A DNA stretch of 36,046 nt from NCBI GenBank assembly GCA_027623655.1, contig JAQBVG010000015.1, forward strand, positions 1 through 36,046, in the 5' to 3' direction. Below the pieces are notes generated by a model, which saw only the letters and a program-made list of their open reading frames with translations, searched no databases and was not told the DNA's origin. This stretch comes from Chloroflexota bacterium (GTDB lineage Bacteria > Chloroflexota > Dehalococcoidia > Lucifugimonadales > Lucifugimonadaceae). Shown piece by piece: positions 1 to 14,701 of this stretch (its first letter is position 1; the number at the start of each line of letters is the position of its first letter). Position numbers and translations under genes: made by a program.

Positions 1-109
1 TGAAAGCGAAAACCGACGCGACAACCACGAAAGCGATGAGAATGATCGCGGTCTCAAGACCGGTAATTCCCTTTTCTTTCTTCGGTGAACCGAAGGAATT
101 TGCGAACAT
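1..109 (-). CDS. archaellin-like protein, N-terminal part (runs off window)
   Basis: This is the first 36 codons of a fourth member of the archaellin-like family that fills the left end of the window; the rest lies outside. The start at 109 is preceded on the minus strand by a GAGGAG Shine-Dalgarno site. The visible protein has a short charged leader (MFANSFGSPKKEKG) followed by ITGLETAIILIAF and a hydrophobic helix. This is the layout of a class III signal peptide, which prepilin/prearchaellin peptidases cut just after the glycine. The DNA of the hydrophobic segment is nearly identical to that of the three complete neighbours, so it is clearly a paralogue. It is likely a secreted filament subunit. 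Confidence is high for the family and low for the exact filament type. Confidence 0.85.
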   Translation of the reverse strand, partial: MFANSFGSPKKEKGITGLETAIILIAFVVVASVFAF

Positions 110-361
110 GTTTTTGGTCTCCTCAAAACCGCCTCTAACGGGCGGGGCCGGACTGGTCTATTTGATACCGCTGACGACTGCTGAACTCTTGTCTGCAGTT
201 CTCTAGTCACTACGGCCATGACTTCAAATCTAGTCGCCAGGGAATCGGTAAGGAATTGCGGTCACCCCAACTTTGAGGGGCGGATAGCCCACACCGTCTG
301 TTAAGCGAAACAGCCACCGAGAAACCGATGGCTGTTTGCATTCTCTGTTCGATTCCTGGAC
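110..361 (-). promoter_or_regulatory. intergenic leader of the partial archaellin gene
   Basis: Read on the minus strand, this spacer holds three things: a terminator-like hairpin at 308-337, the short palindromic block GGGCTATCCGCCCC (277-290), and, just before the Shine-Dalgarno site, a CCGCC/GGCGG hairpin (129-145) preceded by GACCAGTCCGGCC. The same order recurs in front of the next two family genes (1094-1347 and 2071-2348). It therefore looks like a duplicated leader or promoter module rather than random spacer. No coding sequence is seen. Confidence 0.5.
308..337 (-). terminator. hairpin after second archaellin-like gene
   Basis: A 9-bp stem, AAACAGCCA paired with TGGCTGTTT, lies 25 bases after the stop codon of the gene at 362-1093. 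The T-run on the minus strand is weak (GTTTCGCTT), so it may only partly stop transcription. Confidence 0.5.
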
Positions 362-1093
362 TTACTTGAGGTCCATGATCGTATCGAGCCTGGAAGGCGC
401 AGTTCGCTGCACCGTGAGTACAGCTCCGCTCTCCGGTTTCACCTCAATTGTGAATTGATCGTTGGTGCCGATGATCGTGTCGGTTGAAAGCATTCCACGC
501 GCGCCGTTCACGTCAGCGGAAGCGTAGTAGTCAATACCGTTGTTGGCCGTCGGGTCGGTAGCCTGGGCTACGAAGTCCCGCCTGAGTAGCCACACGGTCA
601 CCTCGGCCTTCTCACCTGCTTCTAGAAGGCTGTCTGAGTTGTTATTGCCAACCCAGGCAACCGTCCATGGAACGTCGGAAAGGTACTGGTTTTTGTCTGT
701 GTACGAGATAACAGTCTTGTACTCAGCGCTGGCCACGATGTCTGGATCGCTGCCGGTTCCGCCAGCTGTGTAGGGTGCGGTCAGGTCGACCGGTTCACCA
801 GATACGGCATTCGAAACTACAAACGATACTTTGTAGACGGTGTCCGTCGCACTGGTGGCATCGACTCGCCCTTTATAAGCGATGACTGAACCCCGTGGTT
901 CGATCGAACTCTTCGCTTCTTCAAGTCCAGCGAAGACGGTTTCTTTTGAACGCTCAGAGGCAAAGATACCTGTTGAGAGAACAGTGAAAGCGAATACCGA
1001 TGCGACAACCACGAAAGCGATAAGAATGATCGCGGTCTCAAGACCGGTTATTCCTTTTTCGTGCCTCGGTGCCCCGAGGCTAAGAGTTAGCAT
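362..1093 (-). CDS. archaellin/type IV pilin N-terminal domain protein
   Basis: This is a 243-residue predicted filament subunit. The start chosen is the ATG at 1093, because AGGAGA precedes it by a normal spacing and it gives the class III leader MLTLSLGAPRHEKG followed by ITGLETAIILIAFVV. The longer open frame to 1216 would put 41 unrelated residues before the leader. Residues 15-45 form the hydrophobic assembly helix. The remaining roughly 180 residues, rich in Thr, Ser and Asp, would form the exposed beta domain, ending in the conserved TIMDLK. Archaellins and type IV pilins share this signal type; the long extracellular domain and the GITGLETA motif fit the archaellin-like proteins reported in Chloroflexota. 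It is the second of four tandem paralogues. No assembly ATPase, platform protein or peptidase gene is in the window. Confidence 0.85.
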   Translation of the reverse strand: MLTLSLGAPRHEKGITGLETAIILIAFVVVASVFAFTVLSTGIFASERSKETVFAGLEEAKSSIEPRGSVIAYKGRVDATSATDTVYKVSFVVSNAVSGEPVDLTAPYTAGGTGSDPDIVASAEYKTVISYTDKNQYLSDVPWTVAWVGNNNSDSLLEAGEKAEVTVWLLRRDFVAQATDPTANNGIDYYASADVNGARGMLSTDTIIGTNDQFTIEVKPESGAVLTVQRTAPSRLDTIMDLK

Positions 1094-1347
1094 TATTCGT
1101 GTCTCCTGAATTCCGCCTTCGTGGGGCGGGGCCAGATTGGTCTTCCTCATCGCTGCGACTGTCACCCTGTCTCCGGCCTGGCACAACGCAACAGCAAATG
1201 CAGTTAGGATTACCACGGTATGCTCGGACTTTCGCTATAAGAATTGAGACCACTCCAACGTTCACGGGCGGCTAGCCCGCATATCTCGTTAAGCGAAACA
1301 GCCATCGGAATCCGATGGCTGTCTGCAAATTACTTTTTGTTGTGGAC
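1094..1347 (-). promoter_or_regulatory. intergenic leader of second archaellin-like gene
   Basis: This is a noncoding spacer with the same modules as 110-361. There is a palindromic block GGGCTAGCCGCCC at 1266-1278 with AAGCGAAACA beside it (1291-1300), and a CCGCC/GGCGG hairpin at 1113-1129 directly ahead of the AGGAGA ribosome site. A promoter is expected somewhere between them, but no clear -35/-10 pair could be chosen. Confidence 0.5.
1298..1322 (-). terminator. hairpin after third archaellin-like gene
   Basis: ACAGCCATCGGA pairs with TCCGATGGCTGT, a near-perfect palindrome 25 bases beyond the stop codon of the gene at 1348-2070. There is no strong T-run on the minus strand, so termination strength is uncertain. 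Confidence 0.55.
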
Positions 1348-2070
1348 TTACTTCAGGTCCATGATGGTGTCGAGTCTGGAAGGCGCAGTTCGCTGTATCG
1401 TCAGCACGGCTCCGCTTTCAGGCTTAACCTCTATCGTGAACTGGTCGTTGGTGCTGACGATCGTATCGGTTGACAGCAAGCCACGTGCACCATTGGCGTC
1501 CGGTGCTGCGTAGTAATCGACACCGTTGTTGGCCGTCGCGGCGTAAGTGTTGTCCCGTCGCAGCAGCCATACGCTAACTTCGGCTTTTTCGCCTTCTTCG
1601 AGAAGACTGTCTGAGTTGTTGTTTCCAACCCAGGAGACCGACCACGGAACATCAGCAAAGTACTGGTTCTTGTCCGTGAATGAAATGACCGTCTTGTACT
1701 CGGCACTAGAGACGATGTCTGGATCACTGCCGGCATCGTTCGCCGTGTACGGTGGTGTCAGATCGACTGGCTCACCGGAGACCGCATTCGATACAACAAA
1801 CGAGACCTTGTAGATCGTGTCGGTCGTACTGTCCGTGTCAACTCTTCCCTTGTACGCGATAACCGAGCCGCGTGGCTCGATCGAACTTTTCGCTTCTTCG
1901 AGACCGGCGAATACCGTCTCTTTGGATCGCTCAGAGGCAAAGATACCTGTCGAGAGAACCGTGAAGGCGAATACCGATGCGACAACCACGAAAGCGATGA
2001 GAATGATCGCGGTCTCGAGACCGGTGATTCCTCGTTCGTGCATCGGTGCACCAAGTTTTTGCGTAACCAT
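1348..2070 (-). CDS. archaellin/type IV pilin N-terminal domain protein
   Basis: This 240-residue paralogue starts at ATG 2070 behind an AGGAGA site. Its leader MVTQKLGAPMHERG is followed by ITGLETAIILIAFVV, the class III cleavage and assembly region. From residue 15 to about 70, and again over the last 40 residues, it is almost identical to the neighbour at 362-1093. Differences cluster in the middle, for example the stretches around TDSTTD and NNGVDYYAAP. This pattern fits a filament built from several similar subunits with conserved packing surfaces and variable outer surfaces. The product should be exported, processed and polymerised at the cytoplasmic membrane. It is flanked on both sides by the repeated leader modules. 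Confidence 0.85.
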   Translation of the reverse strand: MVTQKLGAPMHERGITGLETAIILIAFVVVASVFAFTVLSTGIFASERSKETVFAGLEEAKSSIEPRGSVIAYKGRVDTDSTTDTIYKVSFVVSNAVSGEPVDLTPPYTANDAGSDPDIVSSAEYKTVISFTDKNQYFADVPWSVSWVGNNNSDSLLEEGEKAEVSVWLLRRDNTYAATANNGVDYYAAPDANGARGLLSTDTIVSTNDQFTIEVKPESGAVLTIQRTAPSRLDTIMDLK

Positions 2071-2348
2071 TGTGAACGTCTCCTAGAATTCGCCTTCGTG
2101 GGGCGAGGCCAGATTGGTCATCCTCAATACTGCTACCACCGGTGCCCTCTGGCCTTGCGAGCATCCGTGGTCATTACAGCTACAAGAACTACGTTATGAC
2201 TCTGGGTACTTCGTCGGTACCGGGGCCGCTCCATAGCTATGGGGCGGATAGCCCGCACGAGTTCATAGGCGAAACATCCAACGAGGTTAAATAAAAACGA
2301 CCAGCGGGAAATTGCTGGTCGTTTTGCTAAGCTCGCGATTTGGCGCCG
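2071..2348 (-). promoter_or_regulatory. intergenic leader of third archaellin-like gene
   Basis: This is a noncoding spacer with the shared modules: GGGCTATCCGCCCC at 2241-2254, AGGCGAAACA at 2267-2276, and a CGCC/GGCG hairpin at 2091-2105 next to the AGGAGA ribosome site. The block from the GACCAATCTGGCC motif to the ribosome site is nearly the same as in 1094-1140. Confidence 0.5.
2294..2325 (-). terminator. rho-independent terminator after fourth archaellin-like gene
   Basis: AAAACGACCAGC pairs with GCTGGTCGTTTT around an 8-base loop. On the minus strand it is followed by a T-rich run (TTTTTATTT). This is the strongest terminator in the cluster. Confidence 0.75.
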
Positions 2349-3074
2349 CTATCTGAGATCCATGATCGTGTCGAGCCTGGACGGATTGGTCCGCTCGATA
2401 GTCAGCACCGCACCGCTTTCGGGTTTTACCTCAAAAGTGAACTGGTCATTGGCATTCAGCAGCGTGCCGCCTGTCAAAATTCCGCTGCTGCCGTTTACAT
2501 CGGCGCTCGTATATCTGGCGACACCGTTGTTACTTGTCGGATCCGGTACCGCCGCGTCTCGCAGCAAAAGCCACACGCTTATTTCAGCTTTTTCGCCGGC
2601 CTCTAACAGGTAGTCAGAGTTCGACTGGCCAAGAAGGTTTATCGTCCATGGGACGTCGGACAGGTACTGATACTTGTCTACGTAAGAGATGACAGTCCTG
2701 TACTCGGAACCGCTGGCGATATCGGGGTCTGAACCAGAATCGTCTGATGTGTAGGGTGGAGTCATGTCTACGGGCTCGCCCGATATCGCATTTCCAACTA
2801 CAAATGAGACTTTGTAGACAGAATCGTCTGCGGTGGTCGTGCCTGCGCGGCCTTTGAACGCGATGACACTGCCTCGCGGTTCAAGTGAACTTTTCGTTTC
2901 TTGGAGACCTGCATACACCGTTTCTTTCGACCGTTCCGAAGCGAACATTCCGGTAGAAAGCACCGTGAACGCAAAGACCGAAGCGACGACCACGAAGGCG
3001 ATCAGAATGATTGCGGTTTCAAGCCCGGTGATTCCGCGTTGCTGGGCACGATCAGCCAGCTCTTTCGTGATCAT
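2349..3074 (-). CDS. archaellin/type IV pilin N-terminal domain protein
   Basis: This 241-residue member is the most divergent of the set and the first in transcription order. The open frame extends to an ATG at 3095, but a GAGGAG Shine-Dalgarno site lies inside that extension, 10 bases before the ATG at 3074. The start is therefore MITKELADRAQQRG, giving a length and class III leader like the others. ITGLETAIILIAFVV and the hydrophobic helix follow, then a variable Thr/Ser/Asp-rich domain and the conserved end LDTIMDLR. The leader lacks the GACCAATCTGGCC/hairpin module found before the other three, so it may have its own promoter or be expressed differently. It may be a minor or base subunit; that is a guess. 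Confidence 0.85.
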   Translation of the reverse strand: MITKELADRAQQRGITGLETAIILIAFVVVASVFAFTVLSTGMFASERSKETVYAGLQETKSSLEPRGSVIAFKGRAGTTTADDSVYKVSFVVGNAISGEPVDMTPPYTSDDSGSDPDIASGSEYRTVISYVDKYQYLSDVPWTINLLGQSNSDYLLEAGEKAEISVWLLLRDAAVPDPTSNNGVARYTSADVNGSSGILTGGTLLNANDQFTFEVKPESGAVLTIERTNPSRLDTIMDLR

Positions 3075-4424: not shown

Positions 4425-6455
4425 TCAATCATTGTGGCGGTTCATCCAATCGATCATTCTGCTGAAGTATTGCTGGCGAATGAGCGGGTGTTTCGCTCTG
4501 AAAATACCATGACTGGTACCGGGGAGCCGGACAAACTCAACCTTCTTGCCATGACGTTTTAGCGCCACAAAATACTGTTCACTTTGTTCGATTGGCACAC
4601 GAGCGTCATCTTCGCCGTGGATGAGTAAAACCGGCGTATTGACATTCCGCGCGTACGTTAGTGGAGAGTGTTCACGGTAGTGTTCGATAGCTTCGAACCG
4701 CTCTCCGTTCAACTGTGTTTCGGTGAAATTAACGCCAATGTCCGATGTCCCATAGAAGCTCGGCAAATAGGTCACTGGCGCCGCGATTACGGCTGCGTTG
4801 AACCTGTCGGTATGTCCAACTGCCCAACTCGACATGAATCCGCCGTAACTCGACCCGTGGATCACGACCTTACGCTCGTCGATATAGTCACGTGAGGCCA
4901 CGATTTCCATTGCTTCCATGACGTCTTCGAAATCGCCCCCACCCCAATCGCCATGAACCGCTGTGGCAAAGTCGAGACCGTACGTTGAAGATCCCCGGGG
5001 ATTCGGTGCCACTACAACGTAACCGGCACCAGTTGCAACCTGGTGGATGGGATAGAACGCGTCGTAAAAGGCGCTGTGCGGACCACCGTGAACGTCGAGG
5101 AGAAGAGGATATTTGTTGGTCGGGTCAAAATCGGGCGGGAACCACACCCGTGTTTCGATCTCGAAATGGTCTCGTGTGAACGAAAACTTCTCAAGAGATG
5201 CGACCGAATGGTCGTCAAAGAACCTGGCGTTCAAACGTGTGATGCTGTTAACGTCGCCCGAGTTCAGATCCACCCTGTACAGTTCGCCGAACGAGGTCGG
5301 CGATGTAGCGGCTACAACGACGAATCCCGAATCGGACCTGCCAGCCATTTCATTTATCTGCCACCCTCCCGAAATTTTCCTCAGTTCGGATTTCGATCCT
5401 GGATCGACGATGCAAACGTGTGACTGGCCACGCGAATCCGCTCCAAGAACAATTCCTTTGTCTGTCCAGAGCATGGTCGGGCTGTTGCCACCAACCGGCA
5501 ACCCTGATCCGTTGGAGAGGGGGCGGATAGAGTCGTCGGTCAGTTTTGCCGCACTTGATCCTGGCCCAAGAACGTAGACGCTTGATTGAGTTGTTAGCCC
5601 GTAGCCCCCGACCTCCGAACGATCCCTGCCACCGGTGACTGCAATCCGGTGCGAATCGGGTGACCATGCGATCGACTCGACCATAAACAGGTCGTCCGAC
5701 CATTGACGCGATGAAGATCCATCCACTCCACAGACGTATAGCTCGGTATGTGAGGTCAACTCCCGCTCGTCGTTTCGGTCTGTAATGAAAGCAATGTGCT
5801 GCCCTTCAGGCGACCAGACCGGTGGACCGTCGTCACCCTCGCCCTCTGTGATCTGGCTGACAGCGCCTGAGGAGAGGTCGAGAACGAACAGGTGGTAGAA
5901 CGAGTCACCGCGCCAGCCGACGCCGTCCTGCCGGTATCGAATCCGCCTGGCGACCCTTATTTTCGGCTCGGCCGAGTCGCTGGCTATCGCGTCGAGTTCA
6001 TCAGGCCCCGGCACGAGGCCACGGAATGCGATCTTTTCGCCTTCTGGCGACCAGGCGAAGGCGTCAACATCGGCGACCTGATGCGTAAGTTGCTTTCGAA
6101 TCGCTTCAGGCCGAGACTTTTCTTCTTCACTGGGCTCGCGGTCCATTGCAGATTCAGGTGGTCCCTCTGCTGGGACGACGAAAATCTGCCTCACACCGGA
6201 GTCGTCATGGTCAAGATAGGCCAGTCGATCTCCAGCTGGCGACCAGGCAGGCCTCGAGACATCCCCAGAATCCGAGTATTGGACCGGTTCGCCCGACCCA
6301 TCTGTACGCGCAACGAAAAGATCGGTCGTTGCCTCGTGGGTTTTTCGGTCGAACTGATGAACGGTAAACGCCACCAGAAGACCACTGGGGCTGATCGCCG
6401 GATTGGCGGCCGTTTTCAAATAGTAGTGGTAGTCCGGCTGTATCCTCTTGCTCAC
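4425..6455 (-). CDS. S9 family serine peptidase (acylaminoacyl-peptidase-like)
   Basis: This 676-residue prolyl-oligopeptidase-family enzyme probably releases acylated or short N-terminal residues from peptides. The first 390 or so residues form a PD40/WD40-like beta-propeller with repeated WSP(E/D) motifs (PAWSPAGDR, FAWSPEGEK, PVWSPEGQH, IAWSPDSHR). The C-terminal alpha/beta-hydrolase domain has the nucleophile S536 in GSSYGG, D617 in HGEDDARVP and H649 in GTSHGIF. The start is GTG at 6455 behind a GGGGGA ribosome site. No signal peptide is seen, so it is probably cytoplasmic. It is transcribed divergently from the enolase-superfamily gene, with 189 bases between them. The catalytic triad is complete and the length is normal for the family. 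Confidence 0.93.
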   Translation of the reverse strand: MSKRIQPDYHYYLKTAANPAISPSGLLVAFTVHQFDRKTHEATTDLFVARTDGSGEPVQYSDSGDVSRPAWSPAGDRLAYLDHDDSGVRQIFVVPAEGPPESAMDREPSEEEKSRPEAIRKQLTHQVADVDAFAWSPEGEKIAFRGLVPGPDELDAIASDSAEPKIRVARRIRYRQDGVGWRGDSFYHLFVLDLSSGAVSQITEGEGDDGPPVWSPEGQHIAFITDRNDERELTSHTELYVCGVDGSSSRQWSDDLFMVESIAWSPDSHRIAVTGGRDRSEVGGYGLTTQSSVYVLGPGSSAAKLTDDSIRPLSNGSGLPVGGNSPTMLWTDKGIVLGADSRGQSHVCIVDPGSKSELRKISGGWQINEMAGRSDSGFVVVAATSPTSFGELYRVDLNSGDVNSITRLNARFFDDHSVASLEKFSFTRDHFEIETRVWFPPDFDPTNKYPLLLDVHGGPHSAFYDAFYPIHQVATGAGYVVVAPNPRGSSTYGLDFATAVHGDWGGGDFEDVMEAMEIVASRDYIDERKVVIHGSSYGGFMSSWAVGHTDRFNAAVIAAPVTYLPSFYGTSDIGVNFTETQLNGERFEAIEHYREHSPLTYARNVNTPVLLIHGEDDARVPIEQSEQYFVALKRHGKKVEFVRLPGTSHGIFRAKHPLIRQQYFSRMIDWMNRHND

Positions 6456-10828: not shown

Positions 10829-11530
10829 ATGTCCAACATGCCCGAAACCGAAACCAACCAGGTCTCCGATACAGAACCACGGATTCAGTCGCCCGGCGCG
10901 CCTGATGCCGACAAGCTTGAGGAAATCCAGGAGTCGATCCAAACTCTCGTTGAGTCGGGAGAGGAACAACGTGCGCTAACTGAGCTGCAGGGACTCCGCA
11001 ACCCTGACAGAGCTGAGATTCTGGCCGACCTTGAACCGGAAAATCGGCGCGCGCTGCTCGGAAGTCTGTCGAACGACGAAATTGCAGACGTTCTCGAACA
11101 CATGGATGTTGACGAAGCGATCGAGGTTACCGGTCTGGTTGACGTCGCTCGAATGGCGGCCGTTCTGGAAACCGTCTCAGCCGACGTGGCTGCCGACGTC
11201 CTGAGGGGCATCGACTGGGCAGATGCCGCAAACATCCTGGTGCGGATGGAAGACAGGTCAGCAGTCGGGAAACTGCTCCTGTACGACGATGACGATGCCG
11301 GTGGTTTGATGTCGACCGAATTCGTCGCCATGCGGCAGACGTGGACGACTACAAGGGCTCTGAGCGTTCTGAGATATTCCGGTGTCGACCCCGAAGACAT
11401 GCGCCAGCTATTCGCCGTTGACAACGAAGGCGTACTGGTGGTTCTGTCAGAACTCAGTGCTCTAGGGCAATTTGGTGCCCAAACGAGTCCGTCTGATATT
11501 CGTCTTCGTTCTCAACAGGTCAACATTTAG
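10829..11530 (+). pseudogene. mgtE-like magnesium transporter gene, cut by a MITE-like element
   Basis: The first 204 codons encode a normal start of a MgtE-family Mg2+ transporter. There is a hydrophilic lead, the superhelical MgtE N domain (about residues 30-140, rich in alternating Asp/Glu/Ala/Leu), then the start of a CBS domain with DDDDAGGLMSTEFVAM and LFAVDNEG. At 11440 the frame enters the 142-bp element and picks up 29 element-coded residues, ending at 11530. The second CBS domain and all transmembrane helices are missing, and no remainder was found in the window. The product could still be made as a soluble Mg2+-sensing fragment, but transport is impossible. The ribosome site is weak. 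Confidence 0.88.
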
Positions 11531-11581
11531 TGCCGACTTAATGGCAAAAAACGAGGTTGTGCGCTGAGTCCTGACAGAACC
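11440..11581 (+). mobile_element. 142-bp MITE-like element, copy 1
   Basis: This short nonautonomous element has 21-bp terminal inverted repeats, GGTTCTGTCAG(A/G)ACTCAG(T/C)GC, with two mismatches between its ends. It is identical over all 142 bases to copy 2 at 14560-14701, in the opposite orientation. It has no transposase. The bases just inside the inverted segment (11582-11590, CCTGGATTC) are the reverse complement of the 9 bases just outside copy 2 (GAATCCAGG). The left flank of this copy has no matching partner. Confidence 0.92.
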
Positions 11582-14559: not shown

Positions 14560-14701
14560 GGTTCTGTCAGGACTCAGCGCACAACCTCGTTTTTTGCCAT
14601 TAAGTCGGCACTAAATGTTGACCTGTTGAGAACGAAGACGAATATCAGACGGACTCGTTTGGGCACCAAATTGCCCTAGAGCACTGAGTTCTGACAGAAC
14701 C
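14560..14701 (-). mobile_element. 142-bp MITE-like element, copy 2
   Basis: This is an exact inverted copy of 11440-11581. Its right flank (14702-14710) is GAATCCAGG. Its left flank inside the segment (AAACGGAAT) does not match it as a 9-bp duplication, although the last four bases GAAT happen to repeat. When the segment between the copies is flipped, GAATCCAGG stands on both sides of this copy, as expected of a 9-bp target duplication. Confidence 0.92.

Follow-up and report, generated by a model that had tools for sequence, protein, structure and literature searches.

The window, meaning the whole stretch of 36,046 bases analysed here, is an entire contig (C86) of a 2.77 Mb assembly in 216 contigs that is 91% complete (G000), and whose source shares its genus with Candidatus Lucifugimonas marina JH1073 (G014; CP046147.1; SAR202, Dehalococcoidia, Chloroflexota). 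At its left end three complete archaellin genes and the beginning of a fourth lie in tandem, adjoined by a divergently oriented response regulator gene and the conserved flank of the locus:

2349..3074, minus strand: archaellin a1, 241 aa, array position 1, adjoins the response regulator; PF01917 E 2.3e-21
2281..2330, minus strand: terminator-like hairpin after a1, with a conserved stem and compensatory changes; equivalents after a2 and a3
1348..2070, minus strand: archaellin a2, 240 aa; PF01917 E 6.2e-22; top Foldseek match the Litorilinea aerophila archaellum
362..1093, minus strand: archaellin a3, 243 aa; PF01917 E 1.6e-20
2..109, minus strand: archaellin a4, first 36 codons only, cut at the contig edge; ATG, ribosome-binding site, archaellin leader and helix
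3507..4235, plus strand: REC-LuxR response regulator, divergent from the array; PF00072 and PF00196
4425..6455, minus strand: S9 prolyl oligopeptidase (PF00326, synteny), conserved flank of the archaellum locus

The archaellin array

Each of the four archaellin genes has its own AGGAG-type ribosome-binding site and ATG (for a1, the ribosome-binding site favours the start at 3074 over a longer frame reaching 3095). The leaders are of class III, short and charged, and end in Gly (HEKG, HERG, QQRG and KEKG), with ITGLETAIILIAFVVV and a hydrophobic helix following; cleavage is predicted to occur after the Gly, and the mature N-termini are nearly identical (ITGLETAIILIAFVVVASVFAF...). The original prediction, of three complete and one partial tandem archaellin-like genes with a class III leader containing Gly and then one hydrophobic helix, is borne out, coordinates included, with leader and helix being evident in all four genes. 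Less can be said for the variability it attributed to a 'long variable' exterior domain, since over its whole length a2 shares 86% identity with a3 and 69% with a1. The array copies have diverged strongly at synonymous sites, and dN/dS is about 0.04-0.06, so that a chance reading frame is not at issue; by this measure the array is under strong purifying selection.

The inter-archaellin spacers, of about 250 bases, contain a terminator-like hairpin and then a conserved upstream region. In a comparison of 17 spacers from four genomes, compensatory changes are found at several base pairs of the hairpin. Each archaellin is thus probably transcribed as a unit of its own. A sigma-70 promoter scan returned no candidate, and Rfam gives nothing at E <= 1 for the conserved upstream region and leaders. 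The idea of a riboswitch in the leaders was set aside, there being no such match, and the compensatory changes backing, besides the terminator hairpin, just a short stem of 5 bp close to the start codon. Neighbouring copies are alike in patches, their DNA identity in G010 ranging from 100% to below 60% by 15-codon blocks, a pattern that may reflect gene conversion.

Archaellin identity

All three complete proteins match PF01917 (Arch_flagellin) over its full length, at 74.5-79.1 bits against a cut-off of 29.5, and the window archaellins also pass the cut-off of NCBIfam TIGR02537 (archaellin/pilin N-terminal domain), which places them, in agreement with the original prediction, with archaellins and not with bacterial type IV or Tad pilins. 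When PDB was searched with an archaellin profile, the best match was a chain common to 9i5h, 9sie and 9sii (E 5.5e-46), and 9SIE and 9SII are models of the archaellum of the Chloroflexota member L. aerophila (Sivabalasarma et al. 2025, PMC12488501). The fold points the same way. The AlphaFold prediction for mature a2, with a moderate pLDDT of 71.8, has an N-terminal helix and a beta-rich head and is nearest to solved archaellins; Foldseek puts the same L. aerophila entry on top (E 8.7e-15) with archaeal archaella next, and every one of the 17 PDB matches at E <= 0.001 is an archaellum filament subunit. The L. aerophila archaellum is thus the best match in both sequence and fold, and the residues given for its metal site, D127, E131 and E134 (PMC12488501), align with D140, E144 and E147 of mature a2, as read from the alignment. 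The exterior domain is the larger in the window archaellins, which have 226-229 mature residues compared with 183 in L. aerophila. With the archaella of Archaea (Methanospirillum, Aeropyrum, Halobacterium) the family PF01917 and the fold are held in common, but here the host is bacterial.

Apart from the locus, on contig C38 of the same assembly (L008 5285-6016), there is a divergent, intact archaellin-like protein with a GAVAIEVAIISIAG leader that falls below the PF01917 threshold; it is perhaps a separate pilin.

The chromosomal locus and its host

The flank from 4.4 to 11.4 kb is collinear with the one beside the complete archaellum loci of five congeneric genomes (G014, G005, G010, G015 and G007), in all of which the REC-LuxR regulator is at the same position with 86-87% identity. 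The order in such loci is S9 peptidase, divergent response regulator, archaellins (5-6 where the array is whole) and arlCDE, then arlG/F (two or three genes), arlH, arlI, arlJ and a hybrid histidine kinase, and then two response regulators, a cupin gene (absent in G010) and a stretch with GroEL at its end. For arlCDE and arlG/F the naming relies mainly on position and weak matches. ArlI of Ca. L. marina scores 618.8 bits with the NCBIfam archaellum ATPase model (cut-off 550) and its ArlH passes the FlaH subfamily cut-off; for both ArlH and ArlJ archaellum models are the best match, yet under their equivalog cut-offs. In a tree, a1 clusters with the position-1 archaellins of the same five genomes with 100% support.

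An archaellum cluster in Ca. L. marina, with six tandem flaB genes and six scattered copies, was described by Lim et al. 2023 (PMC10444878). The window represents the same chromosomal locus, with equal gene order as far as it reaches and orthologous position-1 archaellins; it differs in that the array is assembled as three complete archaellins and one partial one, and in that the motor is missing from the assembly. Cultured Ca. L. marina cells had no visible archaella (PMC10444878), and an assembled, rotating filament and swimming were shown in 2025 for L. aerophila, making its archaellum a functional one in Chloroflexota (PMC12488501). SAR202 archaella, and archaellum function in Chloroflexota, had thus already been published.

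Archaellum genes are normally archaeal, and archaeal contamination of a bacterial bin might be thought of on that account. It is vanishingly improbable, given that about 6-7 kb of the contig shows collinearity to the closed Ca. L. marina JH1073 chromosome and to four further genomes of the genus, and synteny with a closed bacterial chromosome refutes it. The original prediction had itself pointed to Chloroflexota, to which the host genome belongs, and had described the remainder of the window as bacterial, in line with the S9 peptidase, enolase superfamily, short-chain dehydrogenase, MFS and acyl-CoA synthetase genes found there. A class III leader and N-terminal helix are common to archaellins, ordinary type IV or Tad pilins and archaeal type IV adhesion pilins, so these features would also suit an array of one of the pilin classes. 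Against pilins of any such kind are the full-length PF01917 matches far beyond cut-off, the top solved relatives all being archaellum filaments, and the collinearity of the locus with arlCDE-GF-H-I-J clusters whose ArlI passes the archaellum ATPase cut-off; there is very little chance of such an array, and the profile and synteny results refute it. That the window genes are genuine archaellins in a bacterium is confirmed.

Prepilin peptidase and apparent repeated loss of the locus

Processing of class III leaders calls attention to contig C191, where positions 4681-5439 encode an intact A24 prepilin peptidase of 252 aa (75.6 bits against a cut-off of 26.5); a search for such a class III enzyme elsewhere in the genome had been part of the original prediction. 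Within the genus an intact A24 peptidase is present only in G014, G005, G007, G010, G015, G013 and G000; G009, G004 and G016 have a broken copy, and none was found in the nine other genomes. According to PMC12488501, SAR202 members have an archaeal-like PibD and others a bacterial-type PilD.

In eight genomes of the genus (G001, G011, G018, G012, G003, G002, G006 and G017) the flanks of the locus are joined without an archaellum between them. Several keep remnants: G001 and G011 still have a C-terminal portion of response regulator 2, and G012 has the final 13 codons of the cupin gene. A truncated divergent response regulator is seen in G009 and G016, and G009 also has response regulator 2 broken into pieces. 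A tree built from six flanking proteins, with G000 taken as a motor bearer, calls for eight losses by Dollo parsimony or six changes by unordered parsimony, the exact number being uncertain because several internal branches are weak (34-73%). Genomes that lack the locus, at 1.6-2.6 Mb, are mostly smaller than those with it, at 2.5-3.1 Mb. Repeated loss was judged likelier than a separate horizontal gain in every lineage, because the locus is at one position and several of the losing genomes carry scars. The loss series did not come up in a term search of the accessible text of papers on bacterial archaella.

A different type of example is the occurrence of archaellin genes where no motor was detected. 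G008 (L111) and G009 (L102) have intact archaellin genes of this sort, under slightly relaxed selection (dN/dS about 0.10-0.12). In another genus, G036, which is 94% complete and in which no ArlI was found, has four tandem archaellins on contig C101 (L079 397-4319) and then at least 15 kb in which no motor genes are recognised.

The motor: assembly gap or deletion

No ArlI was found in the 91%-complete G000 assembly with the Pfam T2SSE profile or by direct ArlI protein search, and the whole motor region of Ca. L. marina used as query has no DNA match in it; the entire stretch from the end of the array to the cupin gene is missing. The one match to PF04659 (ArlD/E) is below threshold and has an internal stop; this profile is uninformative here since the Ca. 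L. marina protein taken as arlCDE by position is also unmatched. The original prediction had named absence of motor genes from the genome as what would count against it, and this literally holds for the assembly, but the gap sits at just the position of the motor.

That position is the one the motor occupies in the five relatives. On one side of the gap the window ends inside a4, where the array is most repetitive. The opposite flank is on contig C71, which from GroEL reaches as far as the cupin gene, with just its last 17 codons present (in relatives this gene is situated beyond the motor), and then has tRNA-Pro and, at its broken end, a 112-base repeat. As C71 ends in a dispersed repeat and the window in an archaellin repeat, both contig ends are typical assembly breaks. 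Comparable interruptions are seen in G013, where there is a similar gap and a contig starts within arlJ, keeping its C-terminal half at 97% identity, and in G007, where a break inside the array leaves the motor on a separate contig. Two other contigs of G000, C48 with an intact archaellin and C1 with an archaellin C-terminus, were considered as a continuation of the array and rejected, both running into unrelated genes.

A recent deletion of the motor in this lineage, with the array left as an orphan not yet decayed, would fit with the lack of motor genes from the assembly, with the loss of the locus about eight times in the genus, and with C71 itself, where the truncated cupin gene and unfamiliar junction, with tRNA-Pro and a dispersed repeat, could be a deletion scar. 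Such a deletion is nonetheless unlikely. G000 has an intact array, an intact response regulator and an intact prepilin peptidase, yet in relatives whose locus is decayed or deleted the response regulator is truncated or absent wherever visible and the peptidase is in every case either broken or undetected; also, both contig ends are repeat-induced breaks. With the array, response regulator and peptidase intact as in motor-bearing relatives, and the assembly broken at that point, we infer that the motor was very probably missed by the assembly and not recently deleted.

The 112-base repeat (L096 7014-7125, at the end of C71) has many dispersed copies across genomes of the genus, and is also at the broken end of C48. 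In the window, perfect 142-base inverted repeats (11440-11581 and 14560-14701) surround a 2,978-base segment with gamma-glutamyltranspeptidase and MFS genes and no visible transposase. The outer 23 bases of the 142-base repeats equal the end of the genus-wide 112-base repeat, and this common stretch suggests a transposon-like family.

Proposed working of the locus

It is highly probable that the window contains the first genes of a chromosomal archaellum locus whose motor falls in the assembly gap beyond the left edge. Archaellin identity, synteny, the intact peptidase and purifying selection form the groundwork, and from there the presence of the motor, filament assembly, rotation and mixed composition are what we infer. 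The archaellins would be inserted in the membrane and their class III leader cut after the glycine by the A24 prepilin peptidase of C191. ArlI and ArlJ would then polymerise them into a filament, which ArlI would rotate to give swimming, with arlCDE, arlG/F, arlH, arlI and arlJ presumably situated just past the left edge of the window. Given that each archaellin is probably on its own transcript, the filament would probably be of mixed subunits.

Regulation may be of a bacterial kind. Directly 3′ of arlJ a hybrid histidine kinase and two response regulators are present in all 14 family clusters that have downstream sequence (G014, G005, G010, G015, G007, G013, G021, G030, G079, G084, G086, G088, G096 and G097), as exemplified by Ca. 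L. marina:

L070 9619-12955, Ca. L. marina: kinase and two response regulators, after arlJ

The cassette is gone or broken in every lost locus with a visible site. In PMC12488501, CheF is described as absent in Chloroflexota and another component is suggested to link signalling and motor. A histidine kinase was not mentioned in the accessible text of papers on bacterial archaella, as searched by term. One could guess that the cassette is this linking component. A broader proposal, which is tentative and rather doubtful, is that the cassette and the divergent regulator together are the archaellum's bacterial control module and do the job of archaeal CheF chemotaxis coupling. Transcriptional control of the archaellins is a simpler role than CheF-like coupling, as two of the three regulators near the locus are of the DNA-binding LuxR type.

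The archaellum is then an inherited trait with a fixed locus in this SAR202 genus, and not a curiosity of one isolate. Its repeated loss with scars, the co-loss of the peptidase and the two-component cassette offer testable handles on how bacteria regulate, and discard, an archaeal organelle.
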